The translations under genes and the position numbers were made by a program. This document shows, in pieces, positions 6,445 through 23,394 of a stretch of 64,000 nt of DNA. The notes below the pieces were generated by a model. It worked only from the letters and a program-made list of their open reading frames with translations, ran no database searches and was not told where the DNA came from. The stretch covers positions 558,001 through 622,000 of the forward strand of contig NZ_JONU01000007.1 of assembly GCF_000711985.1 (NCBI RefSeq). The letters are read 5' to 3'. The number at the start of each line of letters is the position of its first letter. Within the stretch, counting starts at the first letter, position 1. This DNA comes from Rheinheimera texasensis DSM 17496 (lineage in GTDB: Bacteria > Pseudomonadota > Gammaproteobacteria > Enterobacterales > Alteromonadaceae).

Positions 6445-7482
6445 TCAATGAGTCAGCGGCCGTTTTTCTCTGCCAAGCCGGATTACCACAGTCGACGCGA
6501 CTTTATCCTGAATTGCCTGGCGGTTTGGGTCCCACAATATCTGCAGAAAACCTAACAAGCCTGTGGCGAGACCCGCGCCATAACCGCCCTGGCGGCTGAA
6601 TGCAGTTAACAGATTCAGTTCTTTGCCATCCAGCTGGATCACTTTGATCCGCATCAGTTTTTTACCGATAGTCTGGCCGTGGCACCAGGCAATAGTCGCG
6701 GTGAAATAAAACACCGCCCAGCCCACGCCGATGCCCAAATCGGCAAAAATGCCTTTAACCCAAGCCACCACACTGTGGGTATTTTCATCAGGAATGTACC
6801 AAGGTAAGGCTGGGGCTTCCGGCTGCGCCGGTTTCGCTTCTACCGGCTTTTGCGGGGCAACTGCAGGAAAATCATCAAGCAGCGCGTCCCGATACAGCGG
6901 CCATTGCTCAGCCGGGAAATCAGAGCCATCAACTAAACTGTCCATCATCTCGACCGCTGCAACTTTATCGACGCCGGCTTTTCGCAGCATTTTTGTGGTT
7001 TTTTCCAGCTCTTTTTTCATACAACCAAGCTCGCAGCTCTGCGCCTGAATTTTCAGTGCCGTGGCAGCAAGCACCATGGCCTGATCCGCGCTTAAGGACT
7101 TATTTGCCACATTCAGATCGGCGTCCTGCTCAACAATCAGCTCCGGCATCCAGGTGGCCGACGCTGCCAAAAACGCCGTTGCCAGCAATAACAGGATGAC
7201 ATGATTAAATTTTTTCGCCTGTAGCCGGAACCAGATGAGATAAGTCATCACCGGCAAAATCAGTAGCAAACTGGCCTTGGCCAGGCCTGAAATGATAATG
7301 CCATCAATCCCCATCGCGATTGCCCGGCGTAGTGGATGCGCGGTCGGTACGCCAAGCAGATTCGGGCATACTTCAAAGGCATAAGGCGTGACAATTTCAC
7401 GACTTTCCTGCCGGGTAAGCGGCGCACCGGTTTCCCCTTGCGGCGGCGGCGTAGCCGGCAGTTCATATTTATTAGTGGGCAT
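6445..7482 (-). CDS. RDD family integral membrane protein
   Basis: A 345-residue inner-membrane protein with an RDD domain split by a long insert. The first RDD part (HPLRRAIAMGIDGIII, residues 48-64) leads into two transmembrane helices (about 68-115). A soluble region of about 110 residues follows, with two cysteines (SCELGCMKKE) and a proline-rich linker (PVEAKPAQPEAPALP). The second RDD half (about 250-345) has the GQTIGKKLMRIKVI motif. The function of this family is mostly unknown; some members are transporters. It lies downstream of the AAA+/VWA pair on the same strand and may belong to that transcription unit. Confidence 0.8.
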   Translation of the reverse strand: MPTNKYELPATPPPQGETGAPLTRQESREIVTPYAFEVCPNLLGVPTAHPLRRAIAMGIDGIIISGLAKASLLLILPVMTYLIWFRLQAKKFNHVILLLLATAFLAASATWMPELIVEQDADLNVANKSLSADQAMVLAATALKIQAQSCELGCMKKELEKTTKMLRKAGVDKVAAVEMMDSLVDGSDFPAEQWPLYRDALLDDFPAVAPQKPVEAKPAQPEAPALPWYIPDENTHSVVAWVKGIFADLGIGVGWAVFYFTATIAWCHGQTIGKKLMRIKVIQLDGKELNLLTAFSRQGGYGAGLATGLLGFLQILWDPNRQAIQDKVASTVVIRLGREKRPLTH

Positions 7483-7547
7483 AGCTCAGGCTCAATGGAA
7501 GGGAGTTTACCTGATACTAACAATCGATTGCAGATGCAGCAACGGTT

Positions 7548-8726
7548 TCAGTACTTGTGCTTTAACTGATTGATAGCACTGGCTAAACCGTCCAGTGTAA
7601 GACCAAACATCCGGCCAGAACAGATTTTGTTGATCTGTCCAATCGAAGCATAATGCGACCACCAGTCCTCTGGCTGTGGATTCAGCCAGACCGCTTGCGG
7701 AAACTGTGCAAGTAAACGCTGCAGCCAGACCTCACCGGCTTCGCTGTTAAAATGCTCCACGCTGCCCCCAGGATAACTGATTTCATAAGGCCCCATTGTC
7801 GCATCACCGACAAAAATCAGCTTGTAATCATGGCCATAGGTATGCAGAAGCTGCGTGGTGGACACAGCATCCTGTGGCCGGCGTTTTTCATCGCGCCATA
7901 GGGTTTCATAAACACAATTATGGAAATAAAAAAATTCCAGATGCTTAAATTCGGCGCGCACCGCATTAAACAGCTGCCGGCATTCATGAATGTAATCATC
8001 CATCGAGCCGCCGATATCAAACAGCAGCAACAACTTCACGGCATTGTGCCGCTCGCGCTGATAACGTAAATCAAGCAGCCCCGCTTGTTTGGAAGTGGCG
8101 CTGATAGTGTCGTTTAAATCCAGCTCACTCTGCGCGCCGCTTCTGGCAAAACGGCGTAATTGCCTGAGCGCCAGCTGCAGACTGCGGTTATTCAGCACTT
8201 CGTCGCTACTCAGGCTCTGAAACTGGCGCTCGTCCCAGACTTTGACCGCCCGCCGTGCGCCACTGCCCTGCTGACCAACACGGATACCTTCCGGGTGAAA
8301 GCCATAAGCGCCAAAAGGCGAGCTACCACCAGTCCCTATCCATTTATTGCCGCCGGCATGACGGCCTTGCTGCTCGGCAAGGCGTTCGCGAAATGCTTTC
8401 AGTAAAGCCTCCAGCCCGCCGAGGCTTTGCAGGGCTGCTTTATCTTCTTCTGAGAGCTGGCGCAACAAACCAGGCGTCAGCCAGTCGTCGGGAATAGCGC
8501 TGATTAGATCCAGCTGTTCAACACCGTCGAAATATTCACTGCAGGCGCGGTCGAATTTGTCATAGTCGGTTTCGTTTTTCACCCAGCACAGCCGCGCCAG
8601 CTGATAAAACTGTTCCAGATCAGCGAACACCAGCTGTTGCTGTACTGCGCGTAGCAAATCCAGATACTCGGTGATGCTGACTTTGACGCCATGGCGGCGT
8701 ACCGTCAGAAAAAAACCACTGAACAT
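7548..8726 (-). CDS. VWA domain protein, CoxE-like
   Basis: A 392-residue cytoplasmic protein with a C-terminal von Willebrand A domain of the CoxE type. The metal site begins LLLFDIGGSMDDY at about residue 240, so the canonical DxSxS is DxGGS here, as is common in this subgroup. The N-terminal 200 residues are helical, with a glycine-rich stretch (GTGGSSPFGAYGF) before the VWA part. The start codon overlaps the stop of the upstream MoxR-type ATPase (TGATG), so the two are coupled. AAA+/VWA partners of this type act as chaperones that insert metals or remodel target proteins. The target here is not evident. Confidence 0.85.
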   Translation of the reverse strand: MFSGFFLTVRRHGVKVSITEYLDLLRAVQQQLVFADLEQFYQLARLCWVKNETDYDKFDRACSEYFDGVEQLDLISAIPDDWLTPGLLRQLSEEDKAALQSLGGLEALLKAFRERLAEQQGRHAGGNKWIGTGGSSPFGAYGFHPEGIRVGQQGSGARRAVKVWDERQFQSLSSDEVLNNRSLQLALRQLRRFARSGAQSELDLNDTISATSKQAGLLDLRYQRERHNAVKLLLLFDIGGSMDDYIHECRQLFNAVRAEFKHLEFFYFHNCVYETLWRDEKRRPQDAVSTTQLLHTYGHDYKLIFVGDATMGPYEISYPGGSVEHFNSEAGEVWLQRLLAQFPQAVWLNPQPEDWWSHYASIGQINKICSGRMFGLTLDGLASAINQLKHKY

Positions 8727-9568
8727 CAGCGCGCCCGCTTTGCCATAAATAGCAGTTTTTCCACCAGCGCGACGTCTTGTTCGTTTTTCAGCAAGGCGCC
8801 AAACAACGGCATTAAGCCGCCGGTCTCCCGGCTCTGTTTCAGCTGTTCCGGTGTCACTTGTTCCGCCAACAATAAACGCAGCCAGTCGATCAGCTCAGAA
8901 GTCGATGGTTTTTTCTTCAGCGCCGGCAGTTCGCGTAAACCAAAAAAGCTTTGTAGTGCTTCGCTCAGCAGCTGTTTGGATAAACCAGGTAAATGCACGT
9001 CGACAATGCGCTCCAGCGCATCAGCATCGGGGAAGCGGATGTAATGGAAAAAACATCGGCGCAAAAACGCATCCGGTAACTCTTTTTCGTTATTGGATGT
9101 GATGATCACCACAGGGCGTTGCAACGCGCGTACCGTTTGACCGGTTTCATACACATCAAAAGCCATCTGGTCCAGTTCGTGCAGCAGGTCGTTGGGGAAT
9201 TCGATATCAGCTTTGTCGATTTCATCAATCAGCAGCACGGGGGGTTTCGCTGCCGTAAACGCCTGCCATAACTTACCCGGTTTGATGTAATTGGCAATGT
9301 CATGCACGCGGGCATCACCGAGCTGGCTGTCACGCAAACGCGAGACAGCATCATATTCATATAAGCCCTGCTGGGCTTTAGTAGTGGATTTAATGTGCCA
9401 TTGCAGCAAGTCAGTATCGAGCGCAACAGCCAGGGCTTTGGCCAGTTCGGTTTTACCGGTGCCCGGCTCACCTTTGATTAATAACGGTTTTTGCAACGTC
9501 ACTGCGGCGTTGACTGCGAGCGCCAGCTCAGGGGTCACTATATATGAGTCATTACTTTGAAAACGCAT
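8726..9568 (-). CDS. MoxR-type AAA+ ATPase, partner of the CoxE-like protein
   Basis: A 280-residue AAA+ ATPase of the MoxR group. Walker A is GEPGTGKTE at about residues 37-45, Walker B is LLIDEIDKAD, and the sensor 1/arginine-finger region is ITSNNEKELPDAFLRRCFFHYI. Such ATPases work with VWA proteins as substrate-remodelling chaperones. It is the first gene of a leftward pair or triplet with the VWA gene (one-base overlap) and perhaps the RDD gene. It is a different subfamily from the MoxR at 43856. Confidence 0.88.
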   Translation of the reverse strand: MRFQSNDSYIVTPELALAVNAAVTLQKPLLIKGEPGTGKTELAKALAVALDTDLLQWHIKSTTKAQQGLYEYDAVSRLRDSQLGDARVHDIANYIKPGKLWQAFTAAKPPVLLIDEIDKADIEFPNDLLHELDQMAFDVYETGQTVRALQRPVVIITSNNEKELPDAFLRRCFFHYIRFPDADALERIVDVHLPGLSKQLLSEALQSFFGLRELPALKKKPSTSELIDWLRLLLAEQVTPEQLKQSRETGGLMPLFGALLKNEQDVALVEKLLFMAKRAR

Positions 9569-9596
9569 AGAAGCCTCAAATTCGCGTCAAACGCTT

Positions 9597-9620
9597 ATAA
9601 CATTAAGTAATATAAGTTAT
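9597..9620 (+). promoter_or_regulatory. AT-rich interrupted inverted repeat upstream of cysK
   Basis: ATAAC at 9597-9601 and GTTAT at 9616-9620 flank an AT-rich centre in the divergent gap between the MoxR gene and cysK. The position, about 75-95 bases before the cysK start, would suit an activator such as CysB. That identity is a guess from location only. Confidence 0.3.
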
Positions 9621-9693
9621 ATCAAAACGCTACTTTCGTTTTTTACATCAGCGGTTATGCTGAGCCAAATTCTTTGTCTGTCTGGAGCTCTGT

Positions 9694-10662
9694 ATGGCAA
9701 ACATTTATGAAGACAACTCATTGTCAATCGGCCGCACACCGCTGGTCAAATTAAAACGCGTCACCACTGGTAACGTTTACGCCAAAATCGAATCCCGTAA
9801 CCCAAGTTTCAGCGTCAAGTGCCGCTTAGGTGCCGCGCTGATTTGGGATGCTGAGAAAAAAGGCTTACTTGGCCCAGGCAAAGAACTGATTGAACCTACA
9901 TCCGGTAACACCGGTATCGCGCTGGCTTTTGTTGCAGCAAGCCGCGGTTATCCGTTAACTCTGACCATGCCAGCGACTATGAGCTTAGAGCGGCGTAAAC
10001 TTCTCAAAGCCTTAGGTGCTAATCTGGTACTGACCGAAGGCGCCAAAGGTATGAAAGGCGCCATTGAAAAAGCCAAAGAAATTCAGGCGTCTAATCCTGA
10101 CAAGTATCTGTTACTGCAGCAGTTTGAAAACCCGGCCAACCCGCAAATTCACTTTGATACCACAGGCCCGGAGATCTGGAACGACACAGACGGCAATATC
10201 GATGTGTTTGTCGCCGGCGTCGGCACTGGCGGGACTATCACCGGGGTGAGCCGCTACATCAAACTGGAGAAAAAACATCCGCTGATTAGCGTCGCGGTAG
10301 AACCGGCCGATTCACCGGTGATCAGCCAGAAACTGGCCGGCGAAGAAATCAAACCGGGCCCGCACAAAATTCAGGGTATTGGTGCTGGTTTTATTCCGGG
10401 CAATCTGGATTTGGAACTGCTTGACCGCGTCGAGAAAGTCAGTAATGACGATGCCATTGCGATGGCACACCGCCTAATGAAAGAAGAAGGCATCCTGGCA
10501 GGTATTTCTTCAGGTGCCGCTGTAGTTGCAGCGAAACGCCTGGCGGAGTCGCCGGAATTTGCCGGCAAAAACATTGTGGTGATCCTGCCGTCTTCCGCTG
10601 AACGTTATCTGTCCAGCGCGCTGTTCGCGGATGTCTTTACTGAAGCTGAGCTGCAAGCCTGA
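9694..10662 (+). CDS. cysK: Cysteine synthase A (O-acetylserine sulfhydrylase)
   Basis: CysK uses PLP to combine O-acetyl-L-serine and sulfide into L-cysteine. The 322-residue protein is close to E. coli CysK throughout. PLP lysine is Lys42 in NPSFSVKCR; the substrate loop is [10 protein letters not shown]; the phosphate-binding loop is [10 protein letters not shown]; the C terminus has [12 protein letters not shown]. Its C terminus, ELQA, is not the usual CysE-like end. The gene is monocistronic: a clear terminator follows at 10681-10708. It is the only cysteine biosynthesis gene here, but lies 10 kb from the cysteine desulfurase fusion. Confidence 0.97.
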
Positions 10663-12049: not shown

Positions 12050-13807
12050 TTATAGGCCTTTGGCCATCCCTTCACGCCGCGGATCTGCTCCGGCCTGCCA
12101 TTCTGCTCCAGCGCGTTTAATCAAATGCAGGCCGCTGTTCAGCTCACCTGTGCGCACCTGATAGCCCATTTCCTGCAGCTTGCCACTCAGGTGCACCAAC
12201 GGCGTGCCAGCTTCAATCGCCAATACATCATTGCGATGGGTAAATTTCGGGAGGTCCGCAGCTTGCTGTGGCCCCATCTGCCAGTCAATCATCGCGATCA
12301 GCGACTGCGCGACATAATTGATGATGCGGCTGCCACCCGGCGAGCCTGCAATCATTTGCAACTGCCCTTGCTGATTAAACACCAGCATCGGCGCCATCGA
12401 TGAGCGCGGCCTTTTGCCGGCTTCAACCCGGTTAGCCACCCATAAACCTTTGTCTCTGGCCTGTAACGAGAAATCGGTCAGCTGGTTATTCAGCAGGTAG
12501 CCATTGACCATCAGCCCGGAACCAAAGGCGTTTTCGATACTGGTGGTCATACTGACCGCATTGCCTTCTTTATCCACCACTGACAAATGGCTGGTGTTGG
12601 CATATTCCGGCGCTTTGGCTTCACCCAATGGCACGGCACCTTCCGGCACACCTGCGGTGATTTGGCCGTTATCCGCCTTCAGATCAATTTGCGCAGCACG
12701 CTGTTTTAAATAATCCGTCGCCAGCAGGCCTTGTACCGGCACCGGACTAAAGGCCGGATCGGCGGCGTAACGCTCCCGATCGGCAAAAGCCAGCCGGCTG
12801 GCCTGACTTATTAAATGCACAGCTTCGACCGACTCAGGCTTGAGTTTGCTCAAATCAAACTGATGTAAAATACCGAGCATTTGCAACACCGCAATACTGC
12901 CGGAACTGGGCGGTGCCATGCCACAGACTTTATAACTGCGATATGGCGCACAGACCGGGTCGCGCCAGACTGGCTGGTAACCGCTGATATCGGCGAGTGT
13001 CATAGCACCGGGATTGATACTGGCTTGATTGACTGTCTGCAAAATCGCTTTGGCATTCTCGCCCTGATAAAAGGCCTCAGGCCCTTTTGCTGCAATTAAC
13101 GTCAGTAAAGCGGCATAAGCCGGGTTTTTGCGCACAAAGCCAATCGGTAGTGGCTTGCCGTCCGGAAAAAAATACTCCCGGCTGCTGCTGAACTGCTTTA
13201 AGCCGGGATGCTGGCTGCCGGCCAGCAACATATGCAGACGCGGCGATACTTTAAAGCCTTGCTCAGCAAGTAGGATCGCCGGCTTAAATAAGTCGGCCCA
13301 GGCTAATTTGCCAAATTTTTGATGCGATTGCGCCAAAGAGGCAATGACGCCCGGCGTACCCACAGCTTTGCCGCCGACAAAAGCTTGTGGCCAGCTTAAT
13401 AACTTACCATTTTGCACAAACCAGTCCGGCGTCGCTGCTGCCGGCGCAGTTTCCCGGCCATCCAGCGTATGCAGTGTTTTGGTTTTATCCTGCCAGGCCA
13501 GCATAAAGAGCCCGCCACCGATACCTGAACTTTGCGGCTCAACCAGCCCCAGCACCAGTTGTACGGCAATAGCTGCATCCACGGCGCTGCCGCCTTGCCT
13601 GAGCATCTGATAACCGGCCTCTGTGGCATAAGGATTGGCCGATACCACCAGAAACTCTTTGGCGCTGACCTGCTGTTTACGGATGATGCCGGTAGCGGCT
13701 TCCGGATCCTGTTGTCCGGCAGCCAGCGCTGCGGCATTCCAGCTGACCATATTTGTGGCAATAACGCTGAAAAACACCAGGGTTCGGGCACGACGAAAAT
13801 AAGACAT
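12050..13807 (-). CDS. ggt: Gamma-glutamyltransferase, periplasmic
   Basis: The enzyme hydrolyses glutathione and other gamma-glutamyl compounds or transfers the gamma-glutamyl group. From the ATG complementary to 13805-13807 it is 585 residues with a signal peptide (MSYFRRARTL onward, cut after about AALAAG). An upstream ATG at 13843 would add twelve residues before the signal and is less likely. The precursor is expected to self-cleave before the nucleophilic threonine in YANTSHLSVVD. The substrate-binding segments RSSMAPM and GSPGGSRIINY are present. No GlyGly-CTERM tail is visible, so it is not an obvious substrate of the neighbouring rhombosortase. Confidence 0.93.
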   Translation of the reverse strand: MSYFRRARTLVFFSVIATNMVSWNAAALAAGQQDPEAATGIIRKQQVSAKEFLVVSANPYATEAGYQMLRQGGSAVDAAIAVQLVLGLVEPQSSGIGGGLFMLAWQDKTKTLHTLDGRETAPAAATPDWFVQNGKLLSWPQAFVGGKAVGTPGVIASLAQSHQKFGKLAWADLFKPAILLAEQGFKVSPRLHMLLAGSQHPGLKQFSSSREYFFPDGKPLPIGFVRKNPAYAALLTLIAAKGPEAFYQGENAKAILQTVNQASINPGAMTLADISGYQPVWRDPVCAPYRSYKVCGMAPPSSGSIAVLQMLGILHQFDLSKLKPESVEAVHLISQASRLAFADRERYAADPAFSPVPVQGLLATDYLKQRAAQIDLKADNGQITAGVPEGAVPLGEAKAPEYANTSHLSVVDKEGNAVSMTTSIENAFGSGLMVNGYLLNNQLTDFSLQARDKGLWVANRVEAGKRPRSSMAPMLVFNQQGQLQMIAGSPGGSRIINYVAQSLIAMIDWQMGPQQAADLPKFTHRNDVLAIEAGTPLVHLSGKLQEMGYQVRTGELNSGLHLIKRAGAEWQAGADPRREGMAKGL

Positions 13808-13987
13808 AAGCGGATACAACTCAGAAACAGAAAAAAGTAACATAACGTACTCGTAGCGGCTTTCGCAATGCCAGCGGCCAGTTTGCTCTTGTCATTGACC
13901 GCAGACTGGCGCATTGTGCGTAAATCAGTTAAAACCATTGCCACAATTGCGTTACACTGCTGACTGTTTTTGCACCGGGGATTGATT

Positions 13988-19569: not shown

Positions 19570-20241
19570 ATGGATTTAGTGATGACAGCACGGCATCATG
19601 GGCCTGAACCTTCCACACAGGGAATGCATGATTTGACAGGCACTGACACTTTGACAGGCACTGAGCTAAAGACTCGCGATGTGGGCCAGTGGGAGCAGGC
19701 ACTTGCTCTGGTTGCGTTGAGTCGCGACAAACAGGCTTATCAGGAGTTGTTTGGTTACTTCGCGCCACGGTTGCGGGCTTTTGGCATCAAGATGTTTGGC
19801 AATGAACAGCAAGCGTTGGAGATGGTGCAGGATACTTTGCTGAATGTCTGGCAAAAAGCGGCGTTGTTTGATCCTAATCGCGGCTGCGCCTCTACGTGGA
19901 TTTTTACCATTGCGCGCAATGTGCGCTTTGACATGCTGCGGAAAAAACAAAGCCGCAAAGATGATATTTCCGCTGACGATTTATGGGCTGACGGTGATTA
20001 CCCGGAAGCTGAAGATCATCAGACGCAAAAATGGGAACTGTGGCTGATCACCGAAAAACTGGCACCACATTTCGCCGCACTGCCACCCGCTCAGCGGCTG
20101 GTGATGGAAAAGGTATATCTGGAAGAGATGTCCCATCAGGAAGTTGCTGAATTACTTGGTATTCCGCTGGGCACTGTTAAATCCCGGATCCGTTTGGCTT
20201 TAGACCGTTTAAGAGAGGCGCTGGATGACTCAGAGCGTTAA
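19570..20241 (+). CDS. ECF sigma factor of the RpoE/ChrR type
   Basis: A 223-residue sigma-70 family protein with region 2 (about residues 58-122, including QDTLLNVWQKAALFDP and STWIFTIARNVRFDMLR) and region 4 (about 165-215, SHQEVAELLGIPLGTVKSRIRLAL). It is preceded by a non-conserved N-terminal segment of about 45 residues containing a short tandem repeat (TGTDTLTGT). Downstream starts at residues 5 or 19 are possible. The next gene is a ChrR-type anti-sigma factor overlapping by 17 bases, which places this sigma in the group that responds to singlet oxygen and organic peroxides. That role is family knowledge, not shown here. Confidence 0.9.
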   Translation: MDLVMTARHHGPEPSTQGMHDLTGTDTLTGTELKTRDVGQWEQALALVALSRDKQAYQELFGYFAPRLRAFGIKMFGNEQQALEMVQDTLLNVWQKAALFDPNRGCASTWIFTIARNVRFDMLRKKQSRKDDISADDLWADGDYPEAEDHQTQKWELWLITEKLAPHFAALPPAQRLVMEKVYLEEMSHQEVAELLGIPLGTVKSRIRLALDRLREALDDSER

Positions 20242-20911
20242 TCATCACCCGAGCATCAGCTTGCTGGAGCTGTATTGCGATGGCAGCCTGAATGCAGAAG
20301 TGGCTTTGTTAATCGCCACCCATTTGGATTATTGTCCGCACTGTCAGCAACTGCGCCGTGATATCGAGACTGATTTGGGTGCTGAACTGGCTGCAACCAA
20401 TCCGGCAACAAGTGTGACAGAAGTACACAGCACCGACTGGCTGGAAATGATGAATAAAATCACGGCGACCCCGCAGTTACCGCAGGCAACACCCGCGGTG
20501 CAGCCAGACAGTCAGCTGAGCATCGGCGGTTATCAGTTCGAATTGCCGCGCAGCCTGCGCCGTATCGCCGGTAAACGTAGCAAGTGGCTCAGTATGGGCG
20601 GCATCGCTACAGCCCGCCTGCCCTCTGGTGAGCCGCATCATGCTTCTTTGCTGTTTATCGACAAGCAAACGGATGTGCCACTGCATACCCACCAGGGTCT
20701 GGAAATGACATTGGTGCTGTCAGGCGAAATGGTCGATGAGAATGGTCGTTATGTTCCTGGCGATTTGATTATTAATTCGCCGGACGATACGCACAAACCG
20801 CGCAACATCAGCGACGAGCCTTGTTTATGTTTGTCGGTATTAAGTGCGCCGCTGCAGTTTAAAGAGGGCCTCACGCGCTGGCTGAATCCGCTACAACGAT
20901 TTTTTTATTAA
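20225..20911 (+). CDS. chrR: ChrR-type zinc/cupin anti-sigma factor
   Basis: A 228-residue anti-sigma factor. The N-terminal zinc anti-sigma domain has His33, Cys37 and Cys40 (HLDYCPHC) plus an N-terminal His7/His8, matching the ligand set of Rhodobacter ChrR. The C-terminal cupin domain keeps HTHQGLE and a later histidine in DTHKPRN, the expected second metal site that senses singlet oxygen or peroxides. It overlaps the sigma gene by 17 bases, so production is coupled. In known systems the cupin signal leads to ChrR release or breakdown and frees the sigma factor. Confidence 0.92.
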   Translation: MTQSVNHHPSISLLELYCDGSLNAEVALLIATHLDYCPHCQQLRRDIETDLGAELAATNPATSVTEVHSTDWLEMMNKITATPQLPQATPAVQPDSQLSIGGYQFELPRSLRRIAGKRSKWLSMGGIATARLPSGEPHHASLLFIDKQTDVPLHTHQGLEMTLVLSGEMVDENGRYVPGDLIINSPDDTHKPRNISDEPCLCLSVLSAPLQFKEGLTRWLNPLQRFFY

Positions 20912-20932: not shown

Positions 20933-20960
20933 GAACCCCGCAGCTGCGGGGTTTATTTTT
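20933..20960 (+). terminator. Rho-independent terminator after chrR
   Basis: AACCCCGCAG pairs directly with CTGCGGGGTT, followed by TATTTTTG, just after the chrR stop and before the convergent fusion gene. Confidence 0.8.
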
Positions 20961-20974
20961 GCGGCAAGGCCAAT

Positions 20975-23224
20975 TTAACTTAGCAGCGCCACGCCACCTT
21001 TGAGGTTATAAACCTGGTCAAATCCCAGCCGGTTTAAGATCTTCGCTGCCAGCAAACTGCGGTTGCCTGAACGGCACACCAGCAGTAACTGCTGTGATGG
21101 TTCAATGGCTCCACTCATCAATGCCCAGGCCAGCTGTGACAAAGGCCAGTGTTGCACTTTCGCACCTGTCGGTAGCAGCGGTTCAATTTCACCAGCGATC
21201 TGTTCATGCGGCTCCCGCACGTCGACGATCTGTAACTGCGGATACTGGCGAAGTAACGCCGCGATGTCAGCAGGACCGATCAGCGCTTTGGCATCGGAAT
21301 AACTGACTTCAACAATGCCACACTGATATTGCTGCTGTTGCTGTAACTGCTGACTTTGCTCAGCCAGTTTGTCGCGCCAGGTCGAAGATAAGCCACCCGC
21401 TTGCAGCACTGCTGTGATCTCCGGATTTTCGGCGGTCATTAAACGCCAGGTGGTGAAAAACCGTTGGGCATAGTCATGGCTGCTCAGTAACAGAGTGTCG
21501 GCGGCCAGCACTTTTCCTAATTGTGTCAGGCTTTGCACAAATGCCTGACTGTCAGAGCCGGTTAAGTCCAGCCGGCCAAAACCACCCGGCAGCACTAGAT
21601 CACCGACAAAAGCCGCCAGCAGCTGCTGGCCACGGTATAACAGGAAACTGTGGCTGTCCGCGCTATGCCCGGGCGTTGCCAGCGTTTGCAGCACAAAAGC
21701 ACCGACTTTGAGTTCAGCCACTGCAGGCCAGCCATTGTCATCAATCGCGACTGGCTGATGCATGCCGAGGGCATTGAGGAAATCGACCCGCACTGACGGA
21801 TGATCCTGATGCTGGTGAGTTTCCAGCACCGCCTTCAGCTGCAGCCCCTGCCCCTGTACCAGCTGCACCAATCGATTCATCAGCGGCTCTACCGGGTCAA
21901 TTACCACTGCTTCGCGGCTTTGTGGGCAAACCAGCAAATAGCTGCATAAATCTTCATACTTCAGCTGCGTCAGACCGGCTAGTGGCGGCGCCATTGAGTG
22001 CTGCGCGTCGTTGAGTACCAGACAGCAATTGCGCACCACCGGCACCAGCCGGCGAATGGCTCTGCAGGCGGCGTCAATTTCGGCCGCAGACATCGCCGGA
22101 CCAAAGGACAATCGCACCGCCCCCTGACTGCGCCATTCTTCGAGCCCCATCGCATCGAGCACAAAACTACCGCTGGCTTTGGAACTACAGGCAGAGCCGG
22201 CACTAACACGAATATTACCGGCATCAAACAAATCGAGTATATCTTTGCTGAGAAATCCCGGCACCGAGAAATTGATGGTGGTCGGCACAATATAAGGCGC
22301 GTCACTATTCAGCACTAACTGTGGGAACAGCTCGGTCAGCGCGGCCAATAACTGCTGACGGTACGACCATAACGTGTCGACACTATGAAACACTGAACCG
22401 GCAGGTTTGAGTAATTCGGTGAAAATCGCATGCAGTGCTGCGATGCCGGGTAAGTTTTCAGTGCCGGAACGTAAACCACTTTCCTGGCCTCCACCGGCGA
22501 TAAATGGCTGATAAGGCGCACCTTCGCGCACGTATAAAAAGCCTATGCCTTTGGGTGCGTAAAGTTTATGACCGCTAAAGGGCGCGTAATCAATGCTGCT
22601 GTTGGCAATATCGAGCGACATTTTGCCAAGCGCCTGTACACAATCAACCATCCAGCGCACGCTGGGATTGACCTTGCGGATCAGCGTTTCCAACTTTGCT
22701 AAATCCTGCTTGACGCCGGTTTCATTATTGGCGGCCATAGTACAAATCAGCGCCGCTTGAGGCAGCAGTTCAGTCATTACCTGTTCGTTCAGAATACCAT
22801 GTTGGTCGACCGGAATAGCTTTGATAGTAGCACCAAGCTGAAGGACCTGATTCCAGTGTTTCAGGCTTTCCGGTACCGCCTTGTGTTCGGTCGCGCCATA
22901 TAACAACAAGGTTTGCGGACCGGTTTGACCGCGGCTGCGCGCGTCAAGCAATGCCGAAACAATCGAAGTCTGGATACCTTCGGTTGCACCTGAGGTGAAT
23001 ACTATTTGCCCCCGGCTCGCACCAATGACTTGTCGCGCCAGCTGTCGGGTTAATTCCAGTTCGACTTTGGCTTTAATTCCGGTGCTGTGGCTGCTACTCG
23101 GGTTGCCAAAACAGGTTTGCATATGGTGCAACACTGCTGCTGCGGCGCATGGCAACACAGCTGTAGTGGCATTGTTGTCCAGATAGACTTCCGCCGGGCA
23201 ACGGTCATTGCGGGATTGAAACAT
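20975..23224 (-). CDS. Cysteine desulfurase / metallo-beta-lactamase-fold / rhodanese triple fusion
   Basis: One 749-residue chain joins three sulfur-handling modules. Residues 10-395 are a class V PLP cysteine desulfurase of NifS/IscS type with His114, PLP Lys220 (FSGHKLY) and active cysteine Cys346 (SAGSACSSK). Residues 415-610 are an MBL-fold domain with HxHxDH at 470-475, His520 (TPGH), Asp542 (VGD, followed by GGFGRLD) and His583; it most resembles ETHE1-type persulfide dioxygenases. Residues 650-749 are a rhodanese with Cys717 in VCRSGNRS. All three sites look intact. This suggests that persulfide made from cysteine is passed on internally to oxidation or transfer; that is inference. 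The gene is monocistronic, has a palindrome 25 bases upstream of its start, and faces the ECF/chrR pair. Confidence 0.9.
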   Translation of the reverse strand: MFQSRNDRCPAEVYLDNNATTAVLPCAAAAVLHHMQTCFGNPSSSHSTGIKAKVELELTRQLARQVIGASRGQIVFTSGATEGIQTSIVSALLDARSRGQTGPQTLLLYGATEHKAVPESLKHWNQVLQLGATIKAIPVDQHGILNEQVMTELLPQAALICTMAANNETGVKQDLAKLETLIRKVNPSVRWMVDCVQALGKMSLDIANSSIDYAPFSGHKLYAPKGIGFLYVREGAPYQPFIAGGGQESGLRSGTENLPGIAALHAIFTELLKPAGSVFHSVDTLWSYRQQLLAALTELFPQLVLNSDAPYIVPTTINFSVPGFLSKDILDLFDAGNIRVSAGSACSSKASGSFVLDAMGLEEWRSQGAVRLSFGPAMSAAEIDAACRAIRRLVPVVRNCCLVLNDAQHSMAPPLAGLTQLKYEDLCSYLLVCPQSREAVVIDPVEPLMNRLVQLVQGQGLQLKAVLETHQHQDHPSVRVDFLNALGMHQPVAIDDNGWPAVAELKVGAFVLQTLATPGHSADSHSFLLYRGQQLLAAFVGDLVLPGGFGRLDLTGSDSQAFVQSLTQLGKVLAADTLLLSSHDYAQRFFTTWRLMTAENPEITAVLQAGGLSSTWRDKLAEQSQQLQQQQQYQCGIVEVSYSDAKALIGPADIAALLRQYPQLQIVDVREPHEQIAGEIEPLLPTGAKVQHWPLSQLAWALMSGAIEPSQQLLLVCRSGNRSLLAAKILNRLGFDQVYNLKGGVALLS

Positions 23225-23264: not shown

Positions 23265-23363
23265 TATAATGATATGAAGATCAGTCTGCTCTGACAAGTC
23301 ATTATTGACGGCCGCATCGCAAAACGCGAATCAACGGCAGGCTTCGGCTTTAGTTGATAAAAC

Positions 23364-23394
23364 TAAAAAAAAACGCCGCGATTAAGCGGCGTCT
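23364..23394 (-). terminator. Rho-independent terminator after fadR
   Basis: On the minus strand GACGCCGCTTAATCGCGGCGT forms a strong stem followed by nine T residues (the A-run at 23365-23373 on the plus strand), a few bases after the fadR stop. Confidence 0.88.

Follow-up and report, generated by a model that had tools for sequence, protein, structure and literature searches.

A cysteine desulfurase–metallo-β-lactamase–rhodanese fusion of Rheinheimera texasensis and its relatives: a constant two-enzyme core around a dispensable, persulfide-dioxygenase-like domain

What would a bacterium do with a single polypeptide in which a cysteine desulfurase (CD), a metallo-β-lactamase (MBL) fold and a rhodanese (Rhd) follow one another? 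The question is raised by a gene in a 64,000-nucleotide stretch of Rheinheimera texasensis DSM 17496 (NCBI RefSeq assembly GCF_000711985.1, contig NZ_JONU01000007.1, positions 558,001 to 622,000 of the forward strand), the whole of which is called the window in the following. The three-domain CD-MBL-Rhd fusion encoded there is confirmed to be real and conserved. The constant core of its family is the CD together with the Rhd, while the MBL, a relative of the persulfide dioxygenases (PDOs), is the dispensable part.

The fusion open reading frame (ORF) exists on the minus strand only, the plus strand at 20975-23224 being interrupted by many stops (Table 1). A preliminary description, made from the letters of the window alone, had claimed the three-domain fusion and proposed a domain search as a check; the single 749-residue ORF, its continuity in 166 distinct proteins and Pfam matches above the gathering scores for all three domains bear it out (Aminotran_5 at residues 13-385, Lactamase_B at 427-475, covering the MBL core only, and Rhodanese at 660-745). 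AlphaFold2 modelled the whole chain with a mean pLDDT of 85.0 and a pTM of 0.81 from an alignment of 53 sequences, and the MBL-Rhd half with 89.2 and 0.90 from 38 sequences. Lys220, Cys346, the HxHxDH motif at 470-475, His520, Asp542, His583 and Cys717 all stand at the positions that had been named.

Relatives were found at E ≤ 1e-60 in 71 of 196 genomes of the window's family, spread over 17 of 52 genera. At E ≤ 1e-70 an order-wide draw gave 32 of 295 genomes, including family members and the genome of the window itself, a class-wide draw gave 1 of 369, which is that same genome, and a phylum-wide draw gave 9 of 398, one of which (G1078) lies outside the window's order. The family of G1078, labelled f213 in our sampling and by our guess Burkholderiaceae, has a relative in 38 of 145 genomes and 9 of 44 genera at E ≤ 1e-60, with a median G+C content of 66% in 26 loci; a second search of the 145 genomes at this threshold with an MBL-less query returned the same 38 genomes and no further CD-Rhd clade. 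Among 72,556 plasmid records, 3 have a match at E ≤ 1e-40, and each of these is a Pseudoalteromonas replicon of 0.8-1.3 Mb. From 293 stretches encoding a relative, 80 were kept as named loci, 78 spanning all three domains and two (L009, L043) ending at a contig end; their genera include Rheinheimera, Alkalimonas, Thalassotalea, Pseudoalteromonas, Shewanella and Colwellia. The complete set comprises 195 loci, some from the same genome fetched twice, hence the 166 distinct continuous proteins mentioned above, and leaving out L009, L043 and L193 (a run of N) from later counts resulted in 163 assessable proteins.

Both outer domains carry their catalytic residues throughout the family. K220 and C346 are invariant in 166 of 166 distinct proteins and the rhodanese motif CRxGxR in all 163 rows that reach it, the CRSGNR of the window protein (717-722) fitting the CxxGxR active-site loop. 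Lys220 corresponds to the pyridoxal phosphate (PLP) lysine of this enzyme family, and Cys346 sits on the catalytic loop. In a Foldseek search with the full model, NifS/IscS desulfurases came out on top, led by the NifS-like 1ecx (TMt 0.91), and the protein shares the fold, the PLP lysine and the cysteine loop (GSAC) of the group I enzymes, so that it belongs to them in the broad sense of a PLP lysine plus a catalytic cysteine loop. It differs from NifS and IscS in being fused, in having no isc or nif genes among its annotated neighbours, and in scoring below every NCBIfam desulfurase cut-off listed (NifS 266.9 against 530.75 bits, IscS 188.8 against 643.2, DndA 213.7 against 480).

The middle domain had been called PDO-like, an assignment with which profile ranking, Foldseek and residue conservation all agree. 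A profile of 38 MBL-Rhd sequences scored 152 bits against BpPRF, the PDO-rhodanese fusion of Burkholderia phytofirmans, spanning both domains, followed by the PDOs of Myxococcus xanthus (125) and Beggiatoa (113) and the plant (108) and human (106) ETHE1 proteins, while the best glyoxalase II reached 68.5 bits with the PDO 4ysk right below at 67.9. Nine distinct PDO or PDO-like sequences, labelled in part after PMC6060420 and structure titles, rank over the first glyoxalase II among the PDB sequences. Foldseek of the C-terminal half likewise placed BpPRF (5ve3-5ve5) first; further structures of the MBL-rhodanese and ETHE1 kinds come next, and no glyoxalase II appears before rank 23. Like the window protein, BpPRF has an MBL followed by a rhodanese, and the iron-ligand, GRxD, HDY and C-terminal CG motifs of the two align; BpPRF differs in lacking the N-terminal CD, and its whole domain arrangement does not superpose with that of the window model (TM 0.48-0.49, rmsd 16.4-17.9 over 361-376 columns). 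With the type I ETHE1 PDOs (human 4chl, Arabidopsis 2gcu, M. xanthus 4ysb, Beggiatoa 8zbd) the iron triad, HxHxDH and HDY align; the window protein differs by reading GRLD for the usual GRTD, by being fused on both sides and by the drift of D474 and H475 in its relatives. A CG motif near its C-terminus has aligned counterparts in 8zbd and BpPRF and presumably matches C247 of human ETHE1.

The presumed iron ligands of the window protein are H470, H520 and D542, accompanied by the PDO-type residues T469, H472, D474, H475, R551, D553, H583, D584, Y585 and C635. In the PDO of A. caldus, PMC6060420 names the iron ligands H57, H113 and D130 and the second-shell residues T56, H59, D61, H62, R139, D141, H171 and Y173, and reports that alanine variants of D61, H62, R139 and D141 were inactive. 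With H113, D130, R139 and D141 matched by motif, the window MBL has a full counterpart of this triad and second-shell network. We call an MBL complete when the H470/H520/D542 triad is present, so its occurrence in 118 of 118 complete domains holds by construction; outside this definition, H472, H583, D584 and C635-G636 are each found in 118 of 118 as well. Other positions drift within the same set (D474 kept in 87, H475 in 78, R551 in 95, D553 in 58), and all nine PDO-type residues tested are jointly present in 76, the window protein among them. As D474 and H475 vary, the HxHxDH motif stands for the window protein and describes its own state, not that of the family. Because the side of the iron triad is fixed while the second-metal positions drift, the alignments speak for a one-metal enzyme with a retained mononuclear site, and members with drifting second-shell residues may be slow or different.

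Among the 163 assessable proteins the MBL is complete in 118, has lost the metal triad in 38 (dead in the following) and is missing in 7. All 38 dead regions are recovered by a profile built from complete MBLs (E 6e-55 to 5e-7), whereas at E ≤ 10 this profile matched neither three shuffles of each dead region nor the 7 MBL-less proteins; the dead regions are therefore decayed MBL relatives and not other domains. Five of them come from the genera g27 and g29 of the window's family (5 of 13 such genomes sampled) and 33 from f213; three of the MBL-less proteins belong to genus g11 of the window's family and four to f213, where no complete MBL was found among the proteins. On a CD tree of 81 rows (L043 and L193 left out) the three labels require 7 changes, live versus not live 4 and present versus absent 4; gain and loss cannot be separated by this tree alone, but they can be by the MBL remnants. 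The CD and Rhd catalytic residues are kept in all members with a dead or absent MBL. Since the MBL site or the whole domain was lost while CD and Rhd were kept, the reaction of the MBL cannot be what the family as a whole is for. The f213 rows and L141 form one clade (support 100/99, midpoint root). L141 (genome G232) belongs to the window's order and is a live CD-MBL-Rhd, and its place inside this f213 clade is a sign of transfer between orders.

Median omega values were 0.73 for the MBL and 0.34 for the CD in dead f213 proteins (487 pairs), compared with 0.09 and 0.045 in live proteins (105 pairs). Because synonymous divergence seems to be compressed in genomes rich in G+C, we put weight only on the MBL/CD ratio of dN, which is 3.0 for dead and 2.0 for live proteins. 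The proteins without a recognisable MBL are L169-L172, L133, L134 and L202; in the latter three, about 110 residues of unrecognised sequence take its place, while the four MBL-less f213 members (510-534 residues, Cys338-360 and Cys478-502) pass directly from CD to Rhd. They bring to mind the CD-Rhd of Pseudorhodoferax sp. Leaf274 (WP_056898193.1; 54 kDa, Cys334 and Cys466), which has been assayed and is the fastest desulfurase in the table of PMC8931425. According to PMC8931425 and PMC12319549, its sulfur moves from cysteine to Cys334, on to Cys466 and from there to thiols. This enzyme resembles the window protein in starting with a CD and ending with an Rhd, each with a catalytic cysteine; the two differ in the about 270 residues, mostly MBL, that lie between CD and Rhd in the window protein and are lacking in the Pseudorhodoferax enzyme. 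Its two cysteines are 132 residues apart, against 140-143 in the MBL-less f213 members, which are otherwise close in build, and the enzyme may descend from the fusion family or share a clade with it. The CD-Rhd combination is thus already known, and both halves of the window protein are of known kinds.

Turning to regulation, a conserved operator-like element is found in the upstream region of the fusion gene, directly downstream of the −10 hexamer of a sigma-70-like promoter (Table 1). Its profile is 28 columns wide and derives from 96 dissimilar loci, out of 152 in Alteromonadales, whose upstream regions served for training; scores in these regions are partly circular, so that only specificity and outside tests carry weight, and our suspicion of a CysB box was put on record before testing. 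Of the training regions, 73 score at least 19 bits and 81 exceed the shuffled 99th percentile of 8.9 bits. At 14 bits or more, 126 of 195 loci have the element at their fusion promoter, and 8 such matches occur outside the distance rule in 1.9 Mb, 4 of them at the fusion gene anyway and 4 truly elsewhere. Strong elements at fusion genes whose ORF start was called far upstream were noted in L022 (5943), L029 (5943), L096 (3751) and L097 (1446). With 27.7 bits the window's own element is the best in the 64 kb, the next independent site being that at the cysK promoter with 12.3 bits. The two profile matches upstream of cysK suggest a cysteine regulator common to cysK and the fusion gene. When 63-70 kb around cys and other genes of Escherichia coli K-12 were scored, the top 3 of 69,844 positions were the promoters of cysP, cysD and cysJ, whose operons are CysB targets; their scores are low (6.4-7.1 bits), and the cysB promoter (3.4) about equals the best control gap (3.1).

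Once rows had been filtered at 15 bits and near-copies taken out, the −10 starts 11 nt ahead of the element in 26 of 27 Rheinheimera/Alkalimonas rows, 8 nt ahead in 5 of 9 Pseudoalteromonas rows and 14 nt ahead in 10 of 18 Shewanella-group rows; 6 Thalassotalea-group rows have no fixed spacing. Read from the sequence, the fusion element would span about +1 to +28, as a repressor site does, and the cysK element would lie upstream of a weak promoter. By resemblance the element may be counted as CysB-type, a likeness that is statistically weak. Shewanella-group upstream regions (e.g. L060, L065, L078) additionally contain a conserved TGATCTTGATCA palindrome upstream of the promoter, which to us resembles a CRP/FNR-type site.

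In f213, 34 of 38 genomes have a gene of the Lrp/AsnC type by Pfam that lies divergent and adjacent to the fusion gene; counted by loci this is 37 of 42, as four genomes are represented twice. Of the misses, G1254 is a contig end, and the stretches examined from G1256, G1167 and G1176 lack a gene of this type. All 37 are closest to DecR of E. coli, with a median identity of 49%, compared with 36% to Lrp and, where aligned, 27% to AsnC. DecR (also YbaO or CyuR) is described as a cysteine-responsive activator of cysteine breakdown in PMC7767077 and PMC11408624. TauE-family exporter genes adjoin the fusion gene in three lineages (one Pseudoalteromonas group with 4 loci, G088 and G101), which speaks for the overflow reading given below, though the adjacency was noticed post hoc and 12 hand-picked genomes contain 1-8 TauE matches each.

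Taken together, we lean towards the explanation that the complete protein is a single-chain cysteine-overflow enzyme, converting cysteine into alanine and a persulfide that ends as sulfite, and induced when cysteine is plentiful. The PLP domain would desulfurate L-cysteine, releasing alanine and leaving a persulfide on Cys346; Cys346 would hand the sulfur to Cys717 of the rhodanese domain and Cys717 would pass it on to a thiol such as glutathione, whose persulfide the PDO-type iron domain in the middle would oxidise with O2 to sulfite, such that no sulfide builds up. The CD-to-Rhd relay is probable for the window protein, well supported as it is by its residues and by the published work on the two-domain enzyme. 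Expression at high cysteine would be brought about by release of the CysB-type operator over the transcription start in Alteromonadales, and by the divergent DecR/CyuR-like activator in f213. We infer in this scheme iron as the metal, sulfite as the product, CysB as the binding factor, repression as its effect and the overflow role itself.

Several observations weigh against this scheme. The MBL metal site or domain is lost in 45 of 163 proteins, and sulfite formation is consequently not a constant output of the family; the closed route from cysteine sulfur to sulfite that had been suggested earlier is plausible for the window protein, not a universal job. D474, H475, R551 and D553 drift even in complete MBLs, and the counterpart of each is needed in the A. 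caldus enzyme, an objection softened for H475 by the type III PDOs, which do without the third histidine. The region of the lysine that contacts glutathione in PDOs (K212/K216, near the C-terminus) is not clearly alignable in the window protein, and the same genome has a separate Blh-like PDO (L210, G000:C5:148624-149475), which matches only positions 143-423 of the Blh model and stays below its cut-off. As for the element, it is missing or weak (≤ 8.9 bits) in 15 of the 96 Alteromonadales upstream regions and reaches 14 bits in 0 of 42 f213 loci; in E. coli the region upstream of cysK scores −5.4, no match, and the comparison of 7 cys gaps with 18 control gaps has a p value of 0.055. Searching the window's own genome with a strict pattern yielded the fusion's site and one other, poor match but no second good site, and hence no support for a large set of near-identical sites. 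The two best homologues of the f213 regulator in this genome are Lrp-like (66% and 54% to Lrp versus 35% and 33% to DecR).

The loss of the middle domain is what gives weight to the strongest competitor, namely a CD-Rhd transpersulfidation machine with glutathione persulfide, H2S or persulfidated proteins as output, in which the MBL is an accessory trimming this output or a mere spacer. An invariant CD and Rhd next to an MBL that is dead in 38 and absent in 7 proteins, with four changes on the tree between live and not live and four between present and absent, would be expected from such a machine, and the assayed Pseudorhodoferax enzyme works without an MBL (PMC8931425). Invariance of H472, H583, D584 and C635 beside the triad in the 118 complete MBLs, together with purifying selection on this domain (median omega 0.09, 105 pairs), argues that in complete members the MBL does something that needs its site, and we regard the transpersulfidation machine as rather unlikely. 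The kinship of the MBL-Rhd half with BpPRF over both domains and the similarity of the element to CysB sites would also suit an enzyme of sulfur assimilation that makes sulfite from thiosulfate or persulfides to feed cysteine synthesis and is activated by CysB in sulfur starvation. BpPRF serves sulfur assimilation. It is hard to see, however, what use an N-terminal cysteine desulfurase would be under cysteine scarcity; by our reading of the sequence, the element at about +1 to +28 occupies the place of a repressor site, with the cysK copy upstream of its promoter; and DecR-like regulators belong to cysteine excess. Together these points render an assimilatory role improbable.

Identity of the MBL as a glyoxalase-II-like thioester hydrolase, to which the NCBIfam model GloB points with 60.3 bits against 24.1 for Blh, was rejected: the cut-off of GloB is 200.8 bits, nine distinct PDO or PDO-like sequences score above the first glyoxalase II in the PDB profile search, and the second-metal positions D474 and H475 drift while the iron triad is fixed. 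Grouping with glyoxalase II, which would have spoken against the PDO assignment, was accordingly seen neither in the sequence profile nor with Foldseek, and we consider such a hydrolase very improbable. A join of separate genes by an assembly or sequencing error has practically no probability left; no point was found in its favour, and it was rejected because the identical continuous architecture recurs in many genomes.

Regarding the genomic surroundings, the fusion gene appears to form its own transcription unit, with promoter-like and terminator-like signals that match the consensus. An operon with fadR was rejected, as a terminator-like hairpin lies in between and no FadR homologue was found outside the Rheinheimera/Alkalimonas loci and their kin among metagenome-assembled genomes. 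No isc, suf or tRNA-thiolation genes are present among the annotated neighbours, which do not comprise every gene of the window, in line with what had been described before; nor was a conserved sulfur-gene neighbourhood found in the Alteromonadales loci, whose neighbours vary by genus. Reading the sequences, we take some of these to be AI-2E-transporter-like, nqr, malic-enzyme-like and YhcH-like genes, and assume DsbB and FKBP genes in the window. Convergent with the fusion gene, a sigma-70-family factor and a ChrR-like cupin partner are encoded at 19570-20911, and homologues stand beside the fusion in about 30 Rheinheimera/Alkalimonas-type loci. Three minus-strand genes at 6445-9568 adjoin cysK and encode an AAA ATPase that weakly resembles MadB at a score under the cut-off, a VWA/CoxE-like and an RDD-family protein; a gamma-glutamyltransferase gene follows at 12050-13843, about 1.4 kb past cysK.

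Table 1. Position of the fusion gene, its domains and the associated features in the window.
Feature	Position	Strand	Basis
CD-MBL-Rhd fusion gene	20975..23224	minus	749-aa ORF, ATG start; translation, Pfam, AlphaFold2
Cysteine-desulfurase domain (residues ~13-395)	22040..23188	minus	PF00266 at 13-385, Foldseek, K220 and C346
MBL domain, PDO kind (residues ~405-645)	21290..22012	minus	Profile, Foldseek, residue alignments
Rhodanese domain (residues ~660-749), catalytic Cys717 in CRSGNR	20978..21247	minus	PF00581 at 660-745
Conserved operator-like element AATATAAGATATTCCATTTGGTTATAAA	23236..23263	minus	Profile of 96 upstream regions, the window's included; CysB-type by resemblance
Sigma-70-like promoter TTGTCA-17-TATCAT	23269..23297	minus	Consensus match
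Intrinsic-terminator-like hairpin after fadR, between fadR and the fusion gene	23371..23394	minus	Consensus match only
Terminator-like hairpin directly 3' of the fusion gene	20934..20953	minus	Consensus match only
Second element-profile match, upstream of cysK	9587..9636	both	12.3 bits on minus, 5.5 bits on plus
cysK, cysteine synthase A, downstream of the second element	9694..10662	plus	TIGR01139, 461.4 bits (cut-off 350.95)

No description of the triple CD-MBL-Rhd fusion, of the recurrent loss of its dioxygenase or of its regulatory wiring was found in the literature searched, with subscription papers mostly outside its scope. In the wider picture that we offer tentatively, and with some doubt, the CD-MBL-Rhd proteins would represent a third bacterial way of cysteine disposal, neither an H2S-releasing desulfhydrase nor a cysteine dioxygenase: a desulfurase, sulfurtransferase and dioxygenase in one chain that channels sulfur to sulfite, is tied to the cysteine regulon by a CysB-type operator, was passed between orders and has shed its dioxygenase several times, leaving hyperactive CD-Rhd enzymes behind. 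If true, this would explain why natural CD-Rhd fusions exist and why the assayed one is so fast, since CD-Rhd enzymes would then either derive from a cysteine-disposal enzyme formerly equipped with a safety valve for sulfide, or stand next to one. It would likewise place a cysteine-degrading enzyme under an apparent regulator of cysteine synthesis, a wiring that can be tested. The fusion family would then also lend itself to testing whether three sulfur enzymes channel a substrate from one to the next, and its natural series of complete, dead and absent middle domains could show what the dioxygenase adds.

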